From the IMG/VR virus record IMGVR_UViG_3300046791_000386, positions 1 through 42,345 of that record: 42,345 nt of DNA, one strand, 5' to 3'. Under the pieces are notes generated by a model, which had not been told where the DNA came from, did not search any database, and saw only the letters and a program-made list of their open reading frames with translations. Below, piece by piece: positions 1,047 through 31,653 of the stretch; within the stretch, counting starts at the first letter, position 1, and every line of letters begins with the position of its first letter. Origin of the DNA: a virus. A program made the position numbers and the translations under genes.

Positions 1047-1643
1047 ATGGTTACGCAAATTCGTTTGAGCTTCGTTGCACTGGCATCCCTAGCCCTTGCG
1101 TTCTTCGGTGTAACACTCGCGTTTGCGAGCGTTGCGGCGGTATCTCCAGATCAATCCGCCATCCTTGACCTGTTACGGCCGGTGGTGCAGGCCGTGCAGC
1201 ATGGTGAGCTCGCGCTCGCTGGCGCGCTCGGTATCATCTTCGCGGTTGCGATGACTCGTCGCTATCTACCCGATGGGTATGGTGGCAAGTGGGTACGTGG
1301 CGATATGGGTGGGATGCTCACCGCGTTCCTGTACTCGGCGGCCGGTTCGGTGGCCACCACGCTAGCCGACTCGAGCGCCCACTTCACGAGCTCCGTGGCG
1401 CTCGCTGCATTGAAGTTCGGTATGGGTGCCGTCGGCGGCTTTGTGGCCCTACATAAGCTGGCCACCGCGCTCACGGCCACCCGATGGTGGAACGAGAAGG
1501 CACCAGCGTGGCTCCGCACGGGCCTGGCATTCATGCTTGCCCTGATCGGTTCTAGCGCGGCCGAGAAGGCCGAAGCCGCGGGTAAGACGGCCGTGGAAGC
1601 GAAGCCCTCCACGGGCTCGGGTGAGTTCACGGACGTGTCGTAA
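1047..1643 (+). CDS. Multi-pass membrane protein, holin candidate
   Basis: The product is 198 residues. The ATG at 1047 follows an AGGAGG site at correct spacing. Hydrophobic segments lie near residues 8-33, 54-70, 90-106, 118-136 and 157-172, so it is a polytopic membrane protein. The first segment could alternatively be a signal peptide (AFAS). The C-terminal 25 residues are charged and low in complexity (EKAEAAGKTAVEAKPSTGSGE), typical of a cytoplasmic tail. It sits between other membrane proteins and upstream of the amidase, which favours a holin-like role. No specific holin family is recognisable. It overlaps the next gene by one base (TAATG), so the two are probably translated in tandem. 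Confidence 0.6.
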   Translation: MVTQIRLSFVALASLALAFFGVTLAFASVAAVSPDQSAILDLLRPVVQAVQHGELALAGALGIIFAVAMTRRYLPDGYGGKWVRGDMGGMLTAFLYSAAGSVATTLADSSAHFTSSVALAALKFGMGAVGGFVALHKLATALTATRWWNEKAPAWLRTGLAFMLALIGSSAAEKAEAAGKTAVEAKPSTGSGEFTDVS

Positions 1644-1990
1644 TGCGCGCACCAGCCAGGTTAGGGATCGCGGTAGCTCTTGCGGTAAACCTCCTCGCTG
1701 CAAGAGCTACCGCGGAGCCCGCTCCATCAAACCGGTTGCGAATGTGGGATCCATCCACGCTCACACTCAAGAGCGGACGGGTGCTCGATCTCCCACCGGG
1801 CCGGTTTATTGAGGAGCTCGAGTTTGAGAAGACCGAGATCGAGTTCAAGCGGTTACAGGATACCGAGACTAGATTGACCGCTGAAAACCACGAGTTCCGT
1901 AAGATCACCGAATCGTGGCAACCTGGGTGGCGCACGCTGGCCGTCACCTTATTGGGCGGTATCGCGATCGGTGTCTACATCACGAAATAA
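1643..1990 (+). CDS. Exported coiled-coil protein with C-terminal membrane anchor (spanin-like?)
   Basis: The product is 115 residues. An N-terminal signal (residues 1-25, LGIAVALAVNLLAARATAEP) ends in a plausible AxA cleavage site. A charged, probably coiled-coil middle follows (residues 58-90, ELEFEKTEIEFKRLQDTE), then a C-terminal hydrophobic helix (WRTLAVTLLGGIAIGVYITK). A secreted helical rod ending in an inner-membrane anchor is the plan of unimolecular spanins. Those, however, carry a lipobox Cys at the N-terminus and none is visible here. It could instead be a periplasmic partner of the upstream lipoprotein. The start overlaps the upstream stop (TAATG). The position in the lysis cassette supports a role in envelope disruption; the exact class is uncertain. 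Confidence 0.5.
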   Translation: MRAPARLGIAVALAVNLLAARATAEPAPSNRLRMWDPSTLTLKSGRVLDLPPGRFIEELEFEKTEIEFKRLQDTETRLTAENHEFRKITESWQPGWRTLAVTLLGGIAIGVYITK

Positions 1991-2049
1991 AGCGCGTAGG
2001 CCATGCCGTTCCTTCGGTGATGCTGCCTTGCCAGGATCCGGAGGGTACA

Positions 2050-3366
2050 ATGGAAGTTCCACTTAAGCGTTGCTCTAAGTGTGGCGTGGAGAAACCGGCT
2101 ACGGCCGAGTTCTTCCATAAGCAAAACCACAAGGGCAACAAATGGGGCCTTCGGTCCATCTGTAAGAAGTGCCGCGATCAATCCAAGTATGGCGCGGATT
2201 CCTGGAAGAAGTACGCACCGCCGCCGCTTGCGGCCATCCCAGATGGGTTCGAGGTATCCAAGCTATCCACTGAAGTGGATGAAAATGGTGAGGCGAAGAA
2301 GCAGTTTATTGGCGCGCGGCCCGAGCGCGTCACCCCCGCGCCTCACCTAACGGTCCCCGATGGTTATGCGCTCAAGCGCATCTCTACACTCACCGACGGT
2401 AACGAGCGGATCATCCAGCAATGGCAGATCTTTACACCCGAGCAAGAGGCGAAGGCCAAGCGCGAGCAGTGGCTCCTTGATGCCATCGGCGCGCTCGCCG
2501 AGAAGTGGCCGGTGCGTGAACCGGTAAAGCTCGAGACCGCCAGGATAGACGAGCGTCTAATGTGCGTCATCCCGATGGGTGATCCGCACTTCGGCCAATA
2601 CTCGTGGGCGGCCGAGACAGGCGATGATTACGATCTGCAACTCGCGGAGCAATATCATTGTACCGCCATGGATGCGCTCGTCGAGAGTGCACCCCGTGCG
2701 AAGCGAGGGTTGCTTATTAACCTCGGTGATTTCGTGCACGCGGACAACTCGAGCAATCAAACGCTACGCGGCCACCATCAACTCGATGTAGATACGCGTT
2801 GGCCGAAGGTAATTCGCTCGTCGGTAAACGCACTCATCTGGCTTGTGCGTAAGATGCTAACGAAGTTCGAGCAAGTCGACGGATGGATGGTTCCAGGCAA
2901 CCACGATCCACACTCGGCCGTGATGTTGCAGCTTGCGCTCACGCTATTCTTCAAGGATGAGCCGCGAGTGAAGATCGATCAGACCGCTGGGTTGTTTTAC
3001 TACGAGCGCTTCGGTAAGAACCTCATCGGCTCCACGCACACCCATACCGTGAAGGATCGCGCTTCGCTCGGTGAGCTGATGGCGATGCATCGGAAGGAAG
3101 ATTGGGGCTGCACCGATCACCGTCATTACTACTGCGGCCACGTGCACCATGACTCGGCACTCGAGACACGCTCGGGTGTCATCGTTGAAACCATGCGCAC
3201 CCTGGCAGGGAAGGATAAGTTCGCGGCCGAGAGTGGGTATGGCTCCGGCCGAGACATGAAGTGCGACATCTTCGACGTAGAAGACGGCCGCATCCAACGC
3301 AACGTAATTGGCATCCGACAAATCATCAGAAAGATCGAGGAGAAGAATAGTGCATCGCAAACATAG
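2050..3366 (+). CDS. Calcineurin-like metallophosphoesterase with N-terminal zinc ribbon
   Basis: The product is 438 residues from ATG 2050, which follows GGAGGG; upstream in-frame codons overlap the previous gene. The N-terminus has a zinc-ribbon pattern (CSKCG near residue 8, CKKC near 42), common at the front of phage nucleic-acid enzymes. The catalytic domain shows the five-block calcineurin signature: GDPH near 177, GD near 227, GNHD near 283, a THTH segment after 320 and GHVH near 363. These would bind two divalent metals and hydrolyse a phosphoester, as in SbcD/Mre11 nucleases or 2',3'-cyclic phosphodiesterases. The substrate cannot be told. It sits among lysis genes but next to a dNTP diphosphohydrolase, so a role in nucleic acid or nucleotide processing is likely. 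Confidence 0.75.
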   Translation: MEVPLKRCSKCGVEKPATAEFFHKQNHKGNKWGLRSICKKCRDQSKYGADSWKKYAPPPLAAIPDGFEVSKLSTEVDENGEAKKQFIGARPERVTPAPHLTVPDGYALKRISTLTDGNERIIQQWQIFTPEQEAKAKREQWLLDAIGALAEKWPVREPVKLETARIDERLMCVIPMGDPHFGQYSWAAETGDDYDLQLAEQYHCTAMDALVESAPRAKRGLLINLGDFVHADNSSNQTLRGHHQLDVDTRWPKVIRSSVNALIWLVRKMLTKFEQVDGWMVPGNHDPHSAVMLQLALTLFFKDEPRVKIDQTAGLFYYERFGKNLIGSTHTHTVKDRASLGELMAMHRKEDWGCTDHRHYYCGHVHHDSALETRSGVIVETMRTLAGKDKFAAESGYGSGRDMKCDIFDVEDGRIQRNVIGIRQIIRKIEEKNSASQT

Positions 3367-3571
3367 ACCTGAAGAGATTGTGACCACCACCCGTGCCACC
3401 GAGTTTACTTGTGGCTGCATCATGCACCCGCTCGTCGGGTACGTCCGACGGTGTGCCGCGCTGGGCTCACGCTCGCTATCGGGCCGCGTGGTCAAACGCG
3501 AAGGTGATGTTGGCCGCCATTCAAAGGCCGAAGTAATCCGTACCTACCCCGTGGCGAGCATCATCCCATGA
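3350..3571 (+). CDS. Small basic protein, unknown
   Basis: The product is 73 residues from a GTG at 3350 preceded by GAGGAG seven bases upstream. It overlaps the phosphoesterase by 17 bases and the next gene by 4 (ATGA). It is basic, with a central CGCIMHPLVGYVRRC segment carrying three cysteines and a histidine that could bind a metal. No family is recognised. Coding status rests on the ribosome binding site and the tight overlaps at both ends. Confidence 0.5.
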   Translation: MHRKHRPEEIVTTTRATEFTCGCIMHPLVGYVRRCAALGSRSLSGRVVKREGDVGRHSKAEVIRTYPVASIIP

Positions 3572-4023
3572 GCGACCAAAAGATTAAAACCGCGGCCGGT
3601 AAAATCCCGCTGGACCTCGTGCCATTGGATTCGATCAAAGGTGCGGCCAGGGTCTTTGGCTATGGAGCCCGCAAGTACGCCCGGGGCAACTGGTACACGG
3701 CAACTGATGATGAGTTCGGTGGCCGCTATGCGGGTGGTGCACTCCGTCACCTCGCATCGGCACAACGGCCCGATGGCACGTTTGACTTCAACTCGCTTGC
3801 ATCGGTTGATGAGGAATCAGGGCTACCCGAAATTGACCACATGCTTTGCGGTCTCATGATGCTTCGCGGATTACTCATCAAACGTGGCGTGCTACCCGTT
3901 GACCCTGGCATCGGCAAGGAACCACCCGCGGGGCGTGATCTCCTTATAGGCACCGAAACAACCGAGGAGAAGAAGGCCATGGCTGCGTTCTTCACCGATA
4001 GAGGGCCCTATGAACGCCGATGA
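3568..4023 (+). CDS. MazZ-like dATP/dGTP diphosphohydrolase (DUF5664-type)
   Basis: The product is 151 residues. It opens with KIPLDLVPLDSIKGAARVFGYGARKYARGNWY, followed by GALRHL (residues 58-63) and EIDHMLCGLMMLRGLL (89-104). This is the pattern of the phage dATP/dGTP diphosphohydrolase N-terminal domain formerly called DUF5664. That family belongs to the all-alpha NTP pyrophosphatase superfamily and includes MazZ of cyanophage S-2L. The H-L and E-x-x-D-H positions fit the helical metal-binding site. MazZ converts dGTP to dGMP (and dATP to dAMP), feeding 2-aminoadenine synthesis when PurZ is present. No PurZ gene is visible here, so general pool adjustment is the cautious reading. Overlaps: ATGA upstream, 14 bases into the amidase gene. 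Confidence 0.75.
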   Translation: MSDQKIKTAAGKIPLDLVPLDSIKGAARVFGYGARKYARGNWYTATDDEFGGRYAGGALRHLASAQRPDGTFDFNSLASVDEESGLPEIDHMLCGLMMLRGLLIKRGVLPVDPGIGKEPPAGRDLLIGTETTEEKKAMAAFFTDRGPYERR

Positions 4024-15349: not shown

Positions 15350-15507
15350 TTGGCCTTCTCAAGCGAACGCGCGATCTTGCGATCGAGCGGCGTGCTCGTC
15401 GGCGGTTGCACCCGTGAGGCGCGGAGTGTGGCAACCCGACGTTGCCACCAACTATCCTTGCGCTTCACCACCACGTAGTTAGACAAGTAGGTTGAACCGG
15501 CGCTCAC
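15346..15507 (-). CDS. 53-residue basic protein
   Basis: A GTG at 15507 overlaps the stop of the Acb2-like gene (GTGA), and the TGA at 15346 overlaps the next ATG. The product (VSAGSTYLSNYVVVKRKDSWWQ...RVATLRASRVQPP...DRKIARSLEKAK) is strongly basic. Coding is supported by the exact overlaps at both ends. A nucleic-acid-binding role is possible; no family is recognised. Confidence 0.5.
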   Translation of the reverse strand: MSAGSTYLSNYVVVKRKDSWWQRRVATLRASRVQPPTSTPLDRKIARSLEKAK

Positions 15508-15770
15508 TGGCTTGGCTCATTTAGTAAGCGTACAGGTTCAACGTAGCCCTCTTGATTCCAGGCGCATCCGGCCATCTCCATCATCGCGAACATCTGTGCT
15601 TCCTGTAGCTTCGTGCGCACGAGTGCCATCGCACGGCCGCCGGTACCGATGATCGATTCGAGATGGTTAAGGCATGCCGAAAATCGCATTGCGATATCGG
15701 CCGCACGCTCGCGACCTAGCTCGTTAAGCGCGTGCACCTTAAACTCTTCGCGAAGTCTAGTTTCACTCAT
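15504..15770 (-). CDS. Acb2/Tad1 hairpin-domain-like protein (possible anti-CBASS/anti-Thoeris sponge)
   Basis: The product is 88 residues, with AAGGAG upstream of ATG 15770. The last two thirds read IAMRFSACLNHLESIIGTGGRAMALVRTKLQEAQMFAMMEMAG. This is close to the two-helix pattern of Acb2 and Tad1 proteins, in which a short turn precedes an R-x-x-x-L-x-x-T-x-L-E-E-A-x-M-W helix. Known members form hexamers that bind cyclic oligonucleotides or cyclic ADP-ribose products and so block CBASS or Thoeris signalling. Differences are Q for the first E and F for W in the second helix. The assignment is by pattern recall and needs a profile search. It sits just downstream of the Cas4-like gene in the early operon, where fast expression would suit counter-defence. 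Confidence 0.5.
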   Translation of the reverse strand: MSETRLREEFKVHALNELGRERAADIAMRFSACLNHLESIIGTGGRAMALVRTKLQEAQMFAMMEMAGCAWNQEGYVEPVRLLNEPSQ

Positions 15771-21456: not shown

Positions 21457-21554
21457 TAAGCCCCCGGGTAGGGAATGGGCACGCCCTGGCTAGCTAGTCC
21501 CCGGAGCATCACCAGAGCGCACCCGGCTCGATCTAAACCACGCTGGCACGTCAC
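21456..21554 (-). CDS. 32-residue peptide, possible coupling gene
   Basis: A GTG at 21554 overlaps the stop of the DUF3223 gene (GTGA), and its TAA overlaps the primase ATG (TAATG). The product VTCQRGLDRAGCALVMLRGLASQGVPIPYPGA has no recognised motif. It fills the space between two genes exactly, so it is either a real microprotein or a translated leader that couples primase synthesis to the upstream gene. Confidence 0.4.
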   Translation of the reverse strand: MTCQRGLDRAGCALVMLRGLASQGVPIPYPGA

Positions 21555-22213
21555 TTGCCAGAGTTCTTTCTTAGCGTCAATAGGTTCGCGGTCTTACTCA
21601 CCACACGCAACACGGCCAGCGATCGGTGAAATTCAGCGAACACAAACGCATCAATTGGCTGGGCAAATCGTTGTGATGTCTCGCCATCCCCTCCCCCGGC
21701 TAGCTCGATGGTGGTGACGTCTAGCGCGTTCTTCCTGATGAACTCATCCGTAATGTGCTGGAACGTCCATGGGGGTGCGTGATCAACATGTGCGGTATCC
21801 CTGGTAATGACCTCACCACTGATCGGGCACGTGATCTCGTTAGCCCATTCAAAGGCCAGAAATTTAGCCGCCGCTACCTGAGGCAGGATAGCCGTACGGC
21901 ATGCTGCCTTGAACTTGGCTAGCCGTGTAGATGGGCTTAGACACTGCAGGTAGGAAAAATCGGTACCTGATCCGTCCACTCGGTGAATCCAGAAGCCGTG
22001 GGTGCCATAAGGCATGATCGCCCTCACCTCGATACTGGCGACACCCACACCGATCTTCGTTTGTGCCGATGGGTGGCGTTCTAGGAGCGCCAGCACGAAG
22101 GGTAGGTGTTGCGGGCTGACAGGTCCGAGAACCTGTAGCAGCGACCGTACGCGGCATTGGACGGCCGCCTTTGAAGTGAACGCCTCACCGGCAAGTAGAT
22201 AGCTGTTGGCCAT
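21551..22213 (-). CDS. DUF3223-domain protein with HNH-like C-terminus
   Basis: The product is 220 residues from ATG 22213; a GTG at 22219 is an alternative. The segment near 55-95 (IEVRAIMPYGTHGFWIHRVDGSGTDFSYLQCL) matches the DUF3223 pattern, a small domain found in phage and plant plastid proteins. A later block, ITCPISGEVITRDTAHVDHAPPWTFQHI, resembles an HNH-type nuclease core, with a Cys, the D-x-A-H-V-D-H pattern and the following P-W-T-F. This pairing occurs in phage endonuclease-like proteins. It is the first gene of the leftward operon, next to the repeat-rich region, so a nicking or origin-related role is possible. Its start codon lies inside a GGGTATG box. Confidence 0.6.
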   Translation of the reverse strand: MANSYLLAGEAFTSKAAVQCRVRSLLQVLGPVSPQHLPFVLALLERHPSAQTKIGVGVASIEVRAIMPYGTHGFWIHRVDGSGTDFSYLQCLSPSTRLAKFKAACRTAILPQVAAAKFLAFEWANEITCPISGEVITRDTAHVDHAPPWTFQHITDEFIRKNALDVTTIELAGGGDGETSQRFAQPIDAFVFAEFHRSLAVLRVVSKTANLLTLRKNSGK

Positions 22214-22280
22214 ACCCACCTAGCGCCCGGCGCCGCTGGATTATTTCAGTGGCACGTCAGTCATTCCAGACCAGGTAGCT

Positions 22281-22726: not shown

Positions 22727-23104
22727 ATGCCCCCGGGGAACGCACTTACTCGCACACGCGCCAAGGTACGCACTGGAACGATGGCCGAAGCGATGTCACG
22801 CAAGATCGCCGAGTCCACCAAAGATGGTGATGAGCTCGTAGCGTTCGCGGAGCGCGTGTGGCGTGACCCTACGATGCCATTCGATGATCGTCGGTGGGCA
22901 TTCGAATGGCTCGCCGATCGCCTCGCAGGCAAGGCGATGGCGAAGATTGAAGTGGGTGGTAACGTCACGCATACCGTTCGACCCAATCTCGAAGATTACA
23001 CGTTCGAGGAAATGGATCAGATCGAGCGCATCAACGCGCGAGCACTTGAGCGTAAGCAATTGTCGACGGTGATCGATGCTAGCGGGATCGAGGTGAAGCC
23101 ATGA
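22727..23104 (+). CDS. Terminase small subunit-like protein
   Basis: The product is 125 residues. The central block (ELVAFAERVWRDPTMPFDDRRWAFEWLADRLAGKAMAKIEV) matches the C-terminal helical region of small terminase-like proteins that carry DUF5681. It is basic at the front (RTRAKVRTGTMAEAMSRK) and acidic later. It lies two genes upstream of the large terminase. Its ATG is part of a GGTATG box (22724-22729), so a protein bound to that box could block translation initiation sites or transcription here. No helix-turn-helix can be assigned by eye. It overlaps the next gene by four bases. Confidence 0.5.
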   Translation: MPPGNALTRTRAKVRTGTMAEAMSRKIAESTKDGDELVAFAERVWRDPTMPFDDRRWAFEWLADRLAGKAMAKIEVGGNVTHTVRPNLEDYTFEEMDQIERINARALERKQLSTVIDASGIEVKP

Positions 23105-23571
23105 CGCACCCTAAGACAGGCCATGATTGTGCAACCATCAAGCCGTGGGATGAGCGTAATGGGTGGACTAGGCCTGAAGAGTTAACCATACACGTGAAGC
23201 GCGGGATGGATTGTGACACGGACCCGGATTATGGATGCACGTGCAACCGGGGCACCGAGCATTGTTGGGTAGATCATGAAGCGGCGAGTAAGGTCTTCTA
23301 CGCCTGCATCACTTCAGCGGACGGCATCGAGTGGTTGATGCATGGTGATTCCGTCGGGGCCGCACTCTTCATGGCATATGATGTGGTGCAAATGATGTAC
23401 GAGGAATGCAAGCCTGGTGAGACGCACTGCTATTGCCGTGATGTAACGTGGTCGAGTCATTGGGCACCAGAACCGCCCAACCATCTTGTAGGCCTCGCTA
23501 AGAGGTGCTGCATCTGCGAGGACAAAGCCGGAGCCGGAGAGTTCGATGTGCCCACATCCAATACTCCGTGA
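23101..23571 (+). CDS. Cys/His-rich hypothetical protein
   Basis: The product is 156 residues. Cysteines cluster at DCDTDPDYGCTCNRGTEHCW (residues 37-56), ETHCYCRDV and RCCICEDK, so more than one metal site is likely. A hydrophobic core (GAALFMAYDVVQMMYEE) lies between them. It is translationally coupled to the TerS-like gene (ATGA) and overlaps the large terminase gene by 26 bases. No family is recognised; its place between the two terminase genes suggests a packaging-related or regulatory role. Confidence 0.5.
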   Translation: MTHPKTGHDCATIKPWDERNGWTRPEELTIHVKRGMDCDTDPDYGCTCNRGTEHCWVDHEAASKVFYACITSADGIEWLMHGDSVGAALFMAYDVVQMMYEECKPGETHCYCRDVTWSSHWAPEPPNHLVGLAKRCCICEDKAGAGEFDVPTSNTP

Positions 23572-25648
23572 GCTCGGGAACGGGCGATGTCCCGTGTGCC
23601 CTCGCGATGAAGCCATCGATACGTTAACCAAACGGTTGGGTGAGTGCGAAGAAGCGCCTGGCCGTGTCTATTTCATGGCCACGAGAGATCGCACGCTGGT
23701 GAAGATCGGTAAGACGCGTTCAAAGGATGACATCCGCTTCGTACGCATCACCGGGCAATCGCCGGTGCCGATCGATCTCATCGCGGAAATCGATGGCTAC
23801 ACGCGGGTGGAGAAGAGAATCCAAGATCAGTTTGAAGCGTACCGCCAGCATGGTGAGTGGTTCCGGTTCGAGGGTGCGCTCAAGCTATTCGTCGAGGCGA
23901 TCATCCGCACTGGCACTCACCCCTGTATCACCGAACGCGAGATCGATCGCGGTAAGATCCGTGACCCTGCACCATTGGTGGATGATTACTCGAAGGCAGG
24001 CGCGGAGCTAGACCGTGGTGTGGTGCAGGAGCCCGCGGAGATCGCGGCCGAGATGGCGCGCATGCTCCCCACGATGGATGACATCGAAGCGGAGAAATGT
24101 AGGCGTTCGCTCTCCTACTTCGTGCGCAAGGCGTGGCTACGAATCAACCCGGGCATCGTGCTGCATTGGGGCTGGCACCTTGAGGAAATCTGCAAGCACG
24201 TACAAGCGATGCTAGAGGAGTGGATCAAGGCGCAACAGGATCCCTCGTACCGGATGAAGGCGCAGAACCTCATCGTCAACTGTCCACCCCGTGCGTTGAA
24301 ATCCACCATCGTGAGCATCTGCGCCCCGGCCTGGATGTGGTTGCGCTGGCCATCGTGGAAGGCCCTGTTCGTGTCGGCCAACCCTCGCGTAGCCGTACGT
24401 GATGCGCGAGCGTGTCGTGCGCTCATCGAAGACCCCTGGTACCAACAGCTCCGTAACACCCTATCGGAACGCTTCGAGGATGGTACCCAGGAGCGCGAGA
24501 GCTTCTCGTGGTCGCTCGATCAGGGCCACAATGCGGATACCGACTTCGCCAACACAAGCGGTGGCGTACGCATGGCCATGGGCTTCTCGGCCATCGTGAC
24601 GGGCCTCGGCGGTGATGCCATCTTCGTGGATGATCCAAACGACATGAAGAAGGTTGTGAGTGAGGTGGAGCGCTCACGCATCAACGATACGTGGGACCTT
24701 TCGTTATGTAACCGTATCAACGATTACGACCGTTCGATCCGCGTGATGATTATGCAGAGGGGTCACGAGATCGATCTCACCGGCCATTGGGTGTCCACCA
24801 TGTCACCTAAAGGGCTCGTCCATCTGGTGATGCCATTGGAATTCGATCCCGAGATGGTGGTGCGGAGTCCGTTCGGGTACACCGATCCGCGCACCGTGCG
24901 CGATGAGAGCTTGCACCCCGCACGCTTCTCGGCCGAGACCATTGAGGAGCTGAAGAAGAAGCCCGGATTCTCAGGGCAGTACAACCAAAAGCCCGTGCCT
25001 GATGACGGGATGTTGTTCAAGCGGGATAGCTGGAATTTCTTCACCCTTACCCGCACCGACGACAAGGACCCGCTCAAGGGTTGTCGGGTGAGCGTAGACC
25101 ACAACCTACCCGCACGGCCGCGAGGGTGCACGACACGCCCGGCCATCCAGCTACCGAAGCTCGATCATCTGGCCATCACCATCGATGCCACGTTTGGATC
25201 ACTCGGGGAGGATGCATCATGCGTAGGGCTCCTGGTGATCGGTACACACAAGGCGGATCGGTTCGTGATCGAAGACCGTACGAAGGCGCGCACATTCACC
25301 GATACCATCCAGGCGATCAGGGACGTGGTGGCGGACTATCCCGCCGTGACGGTCAAGATCATCGAGAAGAAGGCCAACGGTGCGGCCGTGATCCAGACCC
25401 TGCAATCGGAGCTCGGTAGCATCGTGTCGATTGAGAACAACGATAACTATGCGATCCGCTGGAACGCCATGAGCCCGAGCGTGCAAGCGGGTAACTGGTA
25501 CATACTCGAGCACGCACCATGGGCTTCGGCCTTCGTCGCGGAGTTCGCGTTGTGTCCTAAGGGTGCCAAAGATGATCGGATCGATGCGGCGAGTACCCTA
25601 CAGAAGTACTTCGCTACCGACACCCGGCGCTGGATGGGGTGGAAGTAG
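23546..25648 (+). CDS. Terminase large subunit fused to an N-terminal GIY-YIG (T5orf172-type) domain
   Basis: The product is 700 residues, longer than most large terminases. Residues 2-18 (CPHP and CPVC) may bind zinc. Residues 39-120 (GRVYFMATRDRTLVKIGKT, IRFVRITGQSPVPIDLI, RVEKRIQDQFEAYRQHGEWF) fit the T5orf172/MUG113 branch of GIY-YIG nucleases, including the conserved Tyr, KIGKT, Arg, Glu and GEWF. The terminase follows: Walker A CPPRALKST near 246-254, Walker B AIFVDDPND near 357-365, then an RNase H-like nuclease with TIDATFG (near 546), IEKKANG (near 607) and KDDRIDAAS (near 675). It cuts and translocates genome DNA into proheads. The ribosome binding site GGAG precedes ATG 23546. No stop separates the two parts, so this is a true fusion in the sequence. 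Confidence 0.85.
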   Translation: MCPHPILRELGNGRCPVCPRDEAIDTLTKRLGECEEAPGRVYFMATRDRTLVKIGKTRSKDDIRFVRITGQSPVPIDLIAEIDGYTRVEKRIQDQFEAYRQHGEWFRFEGALKLFVEAIIRTGTHPCITEREIDRGKIRDPAPLVDDYSKAGAELDRGVVQEPAEIAAEMARMLPTMDDIEAEKCRRSLSYFVRKAWLRINPGIVLHWGWHLEEICKHVQAMLEEWIKAQQDPSYRMKAQNLIVNCPPRALKSTIVSICAPAWMWLRWPSWKALFVSANPRVAVRDARACRALIEDPWYQQLRNTLSERFEDGTQERESFSWSLDQGHNADTDFANTSGGVRMAMGFSAIVTGLGGDAIFVDDPNDMKKVVSEVERSRINDTWDLSLCNRINDYDRSIRVMIMQRGHEIDLTGHWVSTMSPKGLVHLVMPLEFDPEMVVRSPFGYTDPRTVRDESLHPARFSAETIEELKKKPGFSGQYNQKPVPDDGMLFKRDSWNFFTLTRTDDKDPLKGCRVSVDHNLPARPRGCTTRPAIQLPKLDHLAITIDATFGSLGEDASCVGLLVIGTHKADRFVIEDRTKARTFTDTIQAIRDVVADYPAVTVKIIEKKANGAAVIQTLQSELGSIVSIENNDNYAIRWNAMSPSVQAGNWYILEHAPWASAFVAEFALCPKGAKDDRIDAASTLQKYFATDTRRWMGWK

Positions 25649-25689: not shown

Positions 25690-26154
25690 CTAAGGACATT
25701 CCACGTTGTATATGTCTTTGGTAGACGGGGTGTATGTATCAGTAAGGGAGTGCATCACCGACAAGGGATCGCCTTTAGGATCTACGTGATTCAGACCCAA
25801 AGCGTGACCTAATTCATGCACTAGGACCATGCGCTCTGTCTCTGTATGTCCTGGCTGCATCAAGATATCAACGGTCTCACTAAAATCATCATAGTGACCT
25901 ACAACGCTAGGGCCTTTGTTTGGGTACCTCGCGCGCCAGTCATCAAGCGACAGCCTGCTTACACTATGGCCGTTATAGGCGATATAGAACGCAGGTTCTC
26001 CACCGCACTTCTCATATAGCGCATCATTCCAGATGCCAATGGCGTCTTCTACTACCAGATTCCAAGTATAGTTAGGGTCTTTGATGGCTACAGGCTCGCC
26101 ATAACCCCACCCCTGACAGGCAGATAAACAGATGACTAGATAGGATTTTATCAT
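25690..26154 (-). CDS. Matrixin-like zinc metalloprotease lipoprotein
   Basis: The product is 154 residues. The N-terminus MIKSYLVICLSACQG is a short lipoprotein signal with an LSAC lipobox (Cys13), so the mature protein is tethered outside the cytoplasm. The zinc site is VHELGHALGLNH (H113, E114, H117, H123), the extended metzincin motif, followed by the Met-turn SVMHS (M134). A strand with WNDALY and ILMQPG fits the matrixin fold, here in a minimal size. It is the last gene of a minus-strand cargo cluster that faces the terminase gene. Such enzymes are rare in phages. It may modify the host surface, cleave envelope proteins at lysis, or act as a lysogeny-type cargo gene, although no lysogeny genes are seen. 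Confidence 0.78.
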   Translation of the reverse strand: MIKSYLVICLSACQGWGYGEPVAIKDPNYTWNLVVEDAIGIWNDALYEKCGGEPAFYIAYNGHSVSRLSLDDWRARYPNKGPSVVGHYDDFSETVDILMQPGHTETERMVLVHELGHALGLNHVDPKGDPLSVMHSLTDTYTPSTKDIYNVECP

Positions 26155-27508: not shown

Positions 27509-28234
27509 ATGCGTAGTATCGCCATGTCTAACACGATCACAGCATGGCATTTCCTCCGCGATGACTGGCACACCGGCGAAGGCCGGATCCTAGAGAAGGT
27601 CGGTACGCGCCTTGTTCACACGGGCGACCTGGTACCAGCACGCTCGGGCCTACACGCATCCAGACGGGCGCTCGATGCCCTCCATTATGCGTGCGGTAAT
27701 GTGGTCACACTCGTCGAGTGTGAAGCCCCGTTTGTCGAGAATGCAGGTGATGATAAGTTCGTGTGTACGGCCCGAACACCAGTATGGGGCTACGACGCAT
27801 CCACCGAGCTCCGGTTGTTTGCTCGGCAGGTCGCGAGTGACGCACTAGATAAGTATTGGGATGTGAAGTTCGGTGAGCTTCCCTCCGTACTCACCGAATG
27901 GTTGCGCACGGGTGATCCTACACTCAGGAGCGCGGCCTGGAGCGCGGCCAGGAGCGCGGCCGAGAGCGCGGCCTGGAGCGCGGCCGAGAGAGCGGCCTGG
28001 AGCGCGGCCAGGAGCGCGGCCGAGAGCGCGGCCGAGAGCGCGGCCGAGAGAGCGGCCGAGAGCGCGGCCAGGAGCGCGGCCGAGAGCGCGGCCTGGAGCG
28101 CGGCCTGGAGCGCGGCCTGGAGCGCGGCCAGGAGCGCGGCCAGGAGCGCGGCCTGGAGCGCGGCCGATGTTCGGTTGAAGAAGATCCTAACCGATGGCGC
28201 GATCGAACGGGGCGCTCATCAAGATCGGTGGTGA
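27509..28234 (+). CDS. Protein with DUF7666-like N-terminus and 20 tetrapeptide repeats
   Basis: The product is 241 residues from ATG 27509; ATG 27524 is an alternative start. Residues 10-120 (ITAWHFLRDD, SGLHASRRALDALHYACGNVVTLVECE, ELRLFARQVASDALDKYW) match a small domain of unknown function common in phage and bacterial proteins. Then 20 copies of a four-residue unit follow, S/R-A-A with W, R, E or D as the fourth residue, near residues 141-220. The product ends VRLKKILTDGAIERGAHQ. The repeat is strongly helical and may form a long rod whose W/R/E positions line one face. Function unknown; similar Ala-rich repeats follow this domain elsewhere. Confidence 0.6.
   Translation: MRSIAMSNTITAWHFLRDDWHTGEGRILEKVGTRLVHTGDLVPARSGLHASRRALDALHYACGNVVTLVECEAPFVENAGDDKFVCTARTPVWGYDASTELRLFARQVASDALDKYWDVKFGELPSVLTEWLRTGDPTLRSAAWSAARSAAESAAWSAAERAAWSAARSAAESAAESAAERAAESAARSAAESAAWSAAWSAAWSAARSAARSAAWSAADVRLKKILTDGAIERGAHQDRW
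27929..28168 (+). repeat. 12-bp tandem repeat, 20 units
   Basis: Twenty consecutive copies of AGCGCGGCC followed by TGG, AGG, GAG or finally GAT span 240 bases within a coding gene. Nine of twelve positions are nearly invariant (two units have AGA for AGC), and only the last codon varies. The array keeps the frame when units are gained or lost, so its length should vary between relatives. Confidence 0.95.
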
Positions 28235-29781: not shown

Positions 29782-29799
29782 TGTCTTGCCTTGTCATGT

Positions 29800-29816
29800 C
29801 CACCCGGAGCGGGTGG
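29800..29816. other. Short inverted repeat before the structural genes
   Basis: CCACCCG (29800-29806) pairs with CGGGTGG (29810-29816) over three bases. It lies between the start of the minus-strand regulator-like gene and the portal gene. No T-tract follows, so it may be an operator or hairpin and not a terminator. The rest of 29782-29943 shows no gene I can support. Confidence 0.3.
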
Positions 29817-29943
29817 TAGCTCCACCATACGGATCCTCGAACTACTTGCAAGCGCACAGGATTCGGAAGATGAAGATCGTGCGCCTACGCCACAATCCGA
29901 TCGATGTGTGGTGAGTGTCGCGGGCTTATGCCATCGTCATGCC

Positions 29944-31653
29944 ATGCCAAAAAACAGGGTGACCACGCAAAATAACAGGCTTCCGAATGGACGCTTCCCT
30001 AAGAATGTGAGCGGGAACCCCAACGGACGGCCACGGCTCGATGCAAAGGGTGATGTTACCCACCTCGATAGTTGGGAGAACGTCATCACCAACATTGGTA
30101 CGAACAAGGATGGTAGGAGCGGAGCTCGGTTCAAGCTCCGGGTGGTTGGTAGCACGCAAGCGCGGAACCTTTGGCGCGGTAATGATCTCGTCGCGCGCAT
30201 CGTCGAGACCCACGGTAACGAAGCCTTACGCCGCGGGATCGAGTTGAACCTCGGTGAAGGCCAGAAGGATGAATCCGAGCGCATCCTGGCCGTGCTCGAA
30301 GCGATTCCCGGGCCTGATTTCGTGGGTAACGGGTTGCTCTCGGTGTTCACCAAAGCGCTGCATTACGAATCCGCCTATGGTGGGTGCGCGATCTGGCCGG
30401 TGATTAACGATGCCGAGGGTTCGCTCGAGACACCACTCAACGAAGCCCAGATCCCGAGCGTCGATCGGTTGGTGATCTTCGAACCCCGTGAGCTCCGGCC
30501 CGAGCGCTACTACCAGGCACCAGACCCGAAGGCCGGCCAGGTAGAGGTGTACCGTATCCATCCACTAGCAACTCGAGGTGCAGCGCTTGGGATGCCGTTG
30601 ATCCATGAGTCACGGTTGATCATCTTCCCTGGTATCCGCGTCACGCGCGAGGACATCACCGGCGCGGAGTATGGGTGGGGTGACAATAAGCTTACCCGAT
30701 GCATGCCGGTGCTCTCGGATTTCGATCTCTCGTTTGGTGGTGCAGCTACTTTGCTCGCACAATTTTCTCAGCTGGTGATCAAGCTGAAAGGGTTAGCAAG
30801 CGCACAAGCCTCTAACGAGGATTTCCAGACCCATCTAAAGGCGATGGATACCGCTCGGTCGATTCTTAACGCGATGGTGGTGGATGAAGCCGATGACGTG
30901 CAGCGCCTAGCGGTCTCGATGGGTGGATTCCCCGAGACACTCGATAAGCTAGCGTTGCGGTTGTCGGCAGCAGCTGACATGCCTGTCTCCTTGTTACTTG
31001 GCCAAGCACCGGCCGGATTGCAAGCTACAGGCGACTCGGATATCCGGTTCTTCTACGATCGGATTGCGCAATTGCAGGCGCGCATCCGGCCTATGATCGA
31101 GCGGCTTGTGAAGTGGGTGATGTTGTCCACCACGGGCCCCACGAATGGTCAGGAGCCCGAAACATGGTGCGTGGAATTCCCCTCGCTATGGCAGCAAACG
31201 GAAGCGGAGAAGGTCGCTACACGTAAGACACAGATGGAGATCGACACGGGGTATATCGCCGCGCAAGTCTACTCACCCGAAGAGGCCGCCGCATTCCGGT
31301 TTAGTGGTGACACCTATTCGTTTGAAACCTCCATCGATTTCGCGGAGCGAGAGAAGCTGGCCAAGGCGGATGCAGCGGCCACGGCGTCACTCGGTGGGAG
31401 CTCCGACATCCAGAAGGAAGCACTCAACGGTGCGCAGATCTCATCGCTGATCGAGGTGGTCACGGCCGTGAACTCCGGTGCCATCTCGAGGGAATCAGGC
31501 ATTGCCGCATTGAAGCTGGCGTTCCAGCTCGATGATGCAGAGGCTATTGCGCTCGTTGGACCCGAGACGTTTAAGGCAACGGCCCCGGCACCTGCATCAC
31601 CGTTTGGTGGACCACCGGCCGCACCGGCCCCCGAGGTAACGAATGCCGGTTAA
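29944..31653 (+). CDS. Portal protein (DUF1073-like) with a DUF5681-like N-terminal motif
   Basis: The product is 569 residues from ATG 29944. The body matches DUF1073-type portals: RNLWRGNDLVARIVE, HYESAYGGCAIWPVIND, IHESRLIIFPGI, SDFDLSFGGAATLLAQFSQ, MPVSLLLGQAPAGLQATGDSDIRFFYD and IRPMIERLVKWV. The portal forms the dodecameric ring at the capsid vertex through which the terminase moves DNA. The N-terminus carries NGRFPKNVSGNPNGRPR, a near match to the DUF5681 signature usually found at the front of terminase small subunit-like proteins. The C-terminus is Ala/Pro-rich. Earlier in-frame starts give unlikely sequence. It overlaps the MuF-like gene by 11 bases. Confidence 0.82.
   Translation: MPKNRVTTQNNRLPNGRFPKNVSGNPNGRPRLDAKGDVTHLDSWENVITNIGTNKDGRSGARFKLRVVGSTQARNLWRGNDLVARIVETHGNEALRRGIELNLGEGQKDESERILAVLEAIPGPDFVGNGLLSVFTKALHYESAYGGCAIWPVINDAEGSLETPLNEAQIPSVDRLVIFEPRELRPERYYQAPDPKAGQVEVYRIHPLATRGAALGMPLIHESRLIIFPGIRVTREDITGAEYGWGDNKLTRCMPVLSDFDLSFGGAATLLAQFSQLVIKLKGLASAQASNEDFQTHLKAMDTARSILNAMVVDEADDVQRLAVSMGGFPETLDKLALRLSAAADMPVSLLLGQAPAGLQATGDSDIRFFYDRIAQLQARIRPMIERLVKWVMLSTTGPTNGQEPETWCVEFPSLWQQTEAEKVATRKTQMEIDTGYIAAQVYSPEEAAAFRFSGDTYSFETSIDFAEREKLAKADAAATASLGGSSDIQKEALNGAQISSLIEVVTAVNSGAISRESGIAALKLAFQLDDAEAIALVGPETFKATAPAPASPFGGPPAAPAPEVTNAG

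Follow-up and report, generated by a model that had tools for sequence, protein, structure and literature searches.

Nucleases of the homing type are found around phage terminase genes, and an open question in the field is whether they are selfish neighbours or parts of the packaging machinery; both roles have been discussed, including for the HNH protein of phage HK97 (PMC10448857). A viral stretch of 42,345 nucleotides (IMG/VR record IMGVR_UViG_3300046791_000386, hereafter the window) raises this question within one gene, in which a GIY-YIG nuclease domain precedes the terminase large subunit (TerL) in the same reading frame. As the domain is covalently fused to an intact TerL and retains its invariant residues, the question becomes testable in a single protein by a one-residue change. 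Phages are already known to encode GIY-YIG homing nucleases close to terminase genes and T5orf172 nucleases that have been domesticated, and in HK97 an HNH protein acts as a helper. We found no description of a GIY-YIG/TerL fusion in the literature searched, outside which most subscription journals lie. What looks new from comparison with the TerL of phage ctsHD2 is the insertion context, namely a nuclease placed between an older TerL motif and the ATPase.

One reading frame for nuclease and terminase

The gene consists of one stop-free frame of 700 codons (Table 1). A Cys/His motif opens the protein and is followed by a GIY-YIG domain (residues ~39-122), from which a linker with predicted helices leads to a complete TerL (~173-690). 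The initial annotation had described an uninterrupted frame joining a T5orf172-type GIY-YIG domain to a full terminase ATPase and nuclease, and each of these elements was confirmed here. Neither the open-frame check nor codon-position G+C revealed a frame break between the nuclease and TerL parts; over linker residues 125-175 the codon-position G+C is 0.75/0.45/0.73, and the coding pattern runs on into TerL. Of the in-frame starts compared, the initiator ATG has the best-placed GGAG ribosome-binding site (RBS), while at the starts at residues 159 and 170 a GGAG is present but poorly spaced. A shorter second product, devoid of the nuclease, may be made from ATG 170, 173 or 177. All evidence for the fusion stems from a single metagenomic contig.

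Table 1 Features of the fusion gene and its surroundings in the window.
Feature	Position	Strand	Basis
Likely terminase small subunit (TerS), 125 aa, separate gene	22727..23104	+	Weak same-position similarity
Cys-rich gene, 156 aa, between terS and terL	23101..23571	+	Open reading frame list; overlaps terL start by 26 bases
RBS-like GGAG (23536-23539) and 6-base spacer to ATG	23536..23545	+	Sequence read directly
GIY-YIG and TerL fusion gene	23546-25648	+	Single stop-free frame
Cys/His motif, residues 1-18, MCPHPILRELGNGRCPVC	23546..23599	+	Similarity to ctsHD2 TerL N-terminus
GIY-YIG domain, MUG113/T5orf172 type, residues 39-122	23660..23911	+	Profiles, alignments, model
Linker, predicted helices, residues 123-172	23912..24061	+	Model of low to medium confidence; continuous coding composition
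TerL packaging ATPase, residues 173-490	24062..25015	+	PHROG 38, A7 invariant columns, Foldseek
TerL RNase H-like nuclease, residues 540-690	25163..25615	+	PF17289, TIGR01630, A7 columns
Portal protein	29791..31653	+	PF06381, E 1e-63; tblastn, best GenBank phage match ctsHD2 33.8%

The TerL part is recognised by PHROG 38 (terminase large subunit) over residues 150-684 with an E value of 5.8e-67. Its ATPase displays a Walker A region, NCPPRALKS (245-253), followed by DDP (362-364) and QR (404-405), and the positions that are invariant in the TerL alignment (A7), namely P247-P248, K252, D362-D363 and Q404-R405, are all kept. The RNase H-like nuclease is matched by Terminase_6C (PF17289, residues 544-682) and TIGR01630 (residues 564-684). 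It retains the acidic residues D547, D677 and D680, which are invariant, and E607, which is nearly so. Judged by these profiles and motif residues, the TerL part is complete, with its own ATPase and nuclease. A PDB sequence search with the full protein as query yielded no match at E values up to 1. The full-length structural model, submitted to Foldseek, returned the PhiV-1 terminase, the D6E terminase and T4 gp17 as its first PDB matches. The whole-chain prediction proposed in the initial annotation hence supports the terminase assignment, but it cannot be used to place the nuclease relative to the motor: residues 1-159 have a pLDDT below 50 at almost every position, as they are covered by none of the other rows of the model's alignment. 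A separate model of the N-terminal part is confident, with a pLDDT above 90 across most of residues 41-122.

The N-terminal region, for which a profile search had likewise been suggested, matches two Pfam families above their curated cut-offs: MUG113 (PF13455) over residues 52-109 (E 1.9e-6, 28.8 bits, cut-off 22.3) and T5orf172 (PF10544) over residues 41-109 (24.4 bits, cut-off 20). The nuclease was aligned separately from TerL, with four GenBank relatives (A3) and with 23 IMG/VR relatives (A6). All ten invariant positions (K53-I54-G55, R64, E89, R100 and G103-E104-W105-F106) are kept in the window domain, as are the nearly invariant Y42 and F96. A nearly invariant histidine of the family is replaced by glutamine (Q93), so nuclease activity could be lower. 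In a structural alignment of the N-terminal model, the top ten matches are GIY-YIG proteins (UPF0213, HIGLE, Slx1), with UvrC ranking lower. The named matches in a viral-structure library searched with Foldseek are mostly T5orf172, MUG113, GIY-YIG or BRO proteins. Foldseek against the PDB gave no match at E ≤0.001, the GIY-YIG domain of UvrC ranking first at E 0.23. With a best Z of 4.9, the structural similarity is modest, and it is chiefly the profile matches and conserved residues that identify the domain. It is apparently intact and may be an active nuclease. As a DNA-binding partner for it, only the short Cys/His motif is recognisable, and this is common to a TerL that carries no GIY-YIG domain; RepA_N or another targeting domain is absent among the Pfam matches of the fused protein.

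An intron or other structured RNA at the insert was rejected on the basis of Rfam, which returned nothing at gathering level in the whole window and only chance-level matches around the insert (23400-24300). In a general Pfam search of the fused protein, no intein is among the matches. Homing genes are free-standing or lie as open frames within introns; this domain lies in frame with TerL, with no Rfam intron match.

The fusion gene is situated between the candidate terS and the portal gene, from which it is separated by a block of accessory genes. The putative TerS is not named by any profile. It resembles products of open frames just upstream of terL in related contigs, one by phmmer (L157, E 1.8e-4) and two by BLASTP (L161 and L156). 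For the Cys-rich gene that follows, we found neither a family match nor a significant relative near related terL genes. Several other genes of the window deserve mention. A DUF3223 protein with an HNH-like HVDH stretch, seen by eye, precedes the terminase genes on the opposite strand (21551-22219, minus strand; E 5.8e-14), and the Pfam HNH profile has no match in the window record. Between terL and the portal gene lie a small zinc metalloprotease of the matrixin type (HELGHALGLNH), encoded on the opposite strand (25690-26154, minus strand), and a DUF7666 protein whose second half is an alanine-rich repeat run, SAAWSAARSAAESAA... (27509-28234, plus strand). Further upstream, an 88-residue product (15504-15770, minus strand) weakly resembles the Acb2/Tad1 hairpin domain by profile (E 1.2e-4, under the curated cut-off) and is a possible anti-defence sponge.

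The N-terminal motif and the distribution of the domain

Among GenBank phages, ctsHD2 (MW202816.1) gives the best match to the TerL (32% identity) and also to the portal protein (33.8%) of the window. In the tree, the window, ctsHD2 and a pair of related contigs (L156 and L157) form one group (92/93), without order among them. The TerL of ctsHD2 begins with MICNHKILAAKNGGACPIC and the window protein with MCPHPILRELGNGRCPVC; the four Cys/His positions are equally spaced in both, and 8 of 17 positions are identical. The ungapped BLOSUM62 score of this pair is 54, compared with 19.1 +/- 4.1 for shuffled sequences, none of which scored as high in 20,000 trials. The motif is a possible zinc knuckle. 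Among the other TerL open frames screened, no further case was found, and the two phages may share the motif through descent or have gained it independently.

After the motif, the ctsHD2 protein has approximately 25 residues and then the TerL core, and neither MUG113 nor T5orf172 matches anywhere in the full 48.5 kb of this phage. Because this TerL has the motif without a GIY-YIG domain, we count the motif with TerL on the strength of the comparison, and not with the nuclease; this is a correction to the initial annotation, which had listed it ahead of the GIY-YIG domain. With TerL-lineage sequence upstream and downstream, the nuclease is bracketed and reads as an insertion: it looks to have entered between the older N-terminal motif and the ATPase. 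A read-through join from an upstream nuclease gene is disfavoured, as the TerL-lineage motif precedes the nuclease.

How widespread is this arrangement? TerL relatives gathered by alignment-based scans reach identities of up to ~43%. None of the 185 other TerL loci among the matches listed (~174 distinct contigs) contains a GIY-YIG domain within the TerL frame, and in one of them (L020) such a domain is encoded by a separate gene ~3 kb upstream. MUG113 and T5orf172 were also absent from the whole records of 18 related phages. Scans of viral and genome contigs with the single protein produced no close relative of the fused protein, and no GenBank phage record matched more than 80% of it. From the opposite direction, a scan with the nuclease alignment gave at least 60 loci. 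We read 42 of these in detail, a large set of near-identical prophage copies being represented by a single member, and none is joined to TerL; several carry the nuclease joined to helix-turn-helix (HTH), GapR-like, TerS or other modules. The search for the same fusion in other genomes, which the initial annotation had recommended, was thus negative among the TerL loci and the nuclease loci read. The fusion is rare, and not demonstrably unique, some contigs being fragments. Owing to its absence from the 185 TerL loci and the 18 phage records, the domain was probably gained in the lineage of the window. Alleles without the insert are seen only in distant relatives (≤43% identity).

Possible roles of the fused domain

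We favour, with a probability of roughly 0.42, a reading in which a homing-type nuclease has been captured and domesticated as a second cutter that is borne by the motor and helps to cut DNA for packaging. A MUG113/T5orf172 GIY-YIG nuclease would have entered the 5' end of terL in frame, between the Cys/His motif and the ATPase, and would now be carried by the packaging motor. At the place where the TerS-TerL complex is loaded, it would nick or cut the concatemer in cis and so assist the initiation cut in the manner of the separate HNH protein gp74, which stimulates cos cleavage in HK97 (PMC9410871). Targeting would be supplied by TerS and TerL, not by the nuclease domain itself. The idea of a captured homing nuclease in the motor, already put forward in the initial annotation, is supported by the kinship of the domain with free-standing phage nucleases, several of which lie near terminase genes, and by its absence from related TerLs. 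Sequence-specific cutting of the genome when packaging begins, the other role suggested there, may likewise occur. An N-terminal GFP-TerL fusion has served in HK97 packaging assays (PMC9410871), so the motor is not necessarily blocked by a domain in that position.

Several points count against a role in the packaging cut. TerL already possesses its own nuclease, the fusion is present in one contig with no second genome, and Q93 stands in place of the near-invariant histidine. Furthermore, this group of TerLs can do without the domain, as related phages package their DNA in its absence. A more specific version, in which two nucleases reside in one motor chain and the cut of the GIY-YIG domain, whether at initiation or at branches, is distinct from that of the RNase H-like domain, is more tentative still. 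If it were true, a homing nuclease would have turned into a working part of a packaging motor.

Rather unlikely, in our assessment, is a tolerated passenger of homing origin: TerL would have been kept in frame and working, with the nuclease playing no part in packaging. Such a nuclease may still spread by cutting terL alleles without the insert, or it may be decaying. Proteins of the T5orf172 family count as homing nucleases that cluster at terminase genes, which occur in 35% of their neighbourhoods (PMC10448857), and the relatives without the insert look as empty alleles would. Its GIY-YIG relatives are mostly free-standing, with varied DNA-binding modules, and the glutamine at the histidine position also fits a passenger. 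However, all invariant positions are retained, no separate module for DNA binding, as is usual in homing nucleases, was found, and the intron signature is absent near the insert.

GIY-YIG nucleases include structure-specific enzymes of the Slx1 type, and structures of Slx1 rank with the best structural matches of the window domain. A motor-borne domain might accordingly trim concatemer junctions that would otherwise stall translocation, replacing a Holliday-junction resolvase, and we regard this as improbable. A recombination role has been proposed for the T5orf172 family (PMC7824862), and the RusA, endonuclease VII and RuvC profiles find no match in the window record. Yet matches to RusA and RuvC are likewise missing almost throughout the related phages that lack the GIY-YIG domain, and their absence does not discriminate. 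For the same reason, a gain of the domain in exchange for a lost resolvase proved uninformative as an explanation, the three resolvase families being absent here and in most relatives.

A weapon against competitors, cutting the DNA of satellites or rival phages recognised through the terminase, is very improbable. T5orf172 nucleases have repeatedly acquired the DNA-binding domain of satellite replication proteins, as in Odn of phage ICP1 (PMC10448857), and at one locus (L148) the same type of nuclease is joined to the DNA-binding domain of a TerS, next to an ordinary terS. The window nuclease, by contrast, sits on a single essential TerL rather than on a spare copy, with no RepA_N or other targeting domain found. 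An assembly or sequencing artefact joining two genes is scarcely credible: the source is a single metagenomic contig known as assembled sequence, but TerL-lineage sequence on both sides of the nuclease would demand two in-frame joins in one gene, and the coding composition is continuous with a well-placed RBS.

Related nucleases and known packaging systems

Relatives of the nuclease are encoded close to terminase genes in Mycobacterium phage Nigel, in the Salmonella phages epsilon34 and NM-3 and in VSN-002. The Nigel gene (L091:3914-4249) is an unannotated GIY-YIG gene of 111 residues that adjoins a RuvC-like gene on the strand opposite terL. At another locus, a GapR-like DNA-binding domain is joined to the same type of GIY-YIG domain (L095:4006-5118). 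The window domain shares its fold family and invariant residues with such free-standing phage nucleases, for instance epsilon34 gp68 and the Nigel protein, which are often found near terminase genes. Theirs are separate genes, fused in other phages to an HTH, a GapR-like or a zinc module, whereas that of the window lies inside TerL. The TerL of ctsHD2 is of the same type and has the N-terminal Cys/His motif in common with the window protein, and it differs in having its short linker where the window protein has the GIY-YIG domain.

As in HK97, where gp74 promotes cutting for packaging (PMC9410871), the window phage has an extra nuclease besides that of TerL. In contrast to the window domain, gp74 is an HNH protein, is encoded by a separate gene and belongs to a cos system. 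The terL of ICP1 is likewise associated with a T5orf172 nuclease (PMC10448857), there in the form of a neighbouring homing nuclease gene and a spliced intron, whereas the window encodes an uninterrupted protein with no intron match. Odn of ICP1, in which T5orf172 is combined with RepA_N, offers a precedent for a domesticated T5orf172 nuclease; it reaches the satellite origin through RepA_N, which has no match in the window protein.

A further parallel is L148, where a terminase subunit is joined to a nuclease of the same family. The TerS/GIY-YIG fusion (65-814; Terminase_2, E 1.9e-16; MUG113, E 1.2e-8) lies immediately ahead of an ordinary second terS (853-1443) and of terL, and its arrangement resembles the logic of an origin-directed nuclease. 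By eye, the TerL frame of this locus (1412-3745) contains an intein-like segment, with GQLVATERGD near its start and ASSILVHNC at its end, and an HNH-like open frame lies in another frame of the same gene (2917-3558). No clear further example of a TerS/GIY-YIG fusion was found. The L148 fusion differs from that of the window in that it involves the small subunit, places the nuclease at the C-terminus and stands beside an intact second terS. By this comparison the two fusions are independent, which suggests that nucleases of this family have been joined to terminase subunits more than once.
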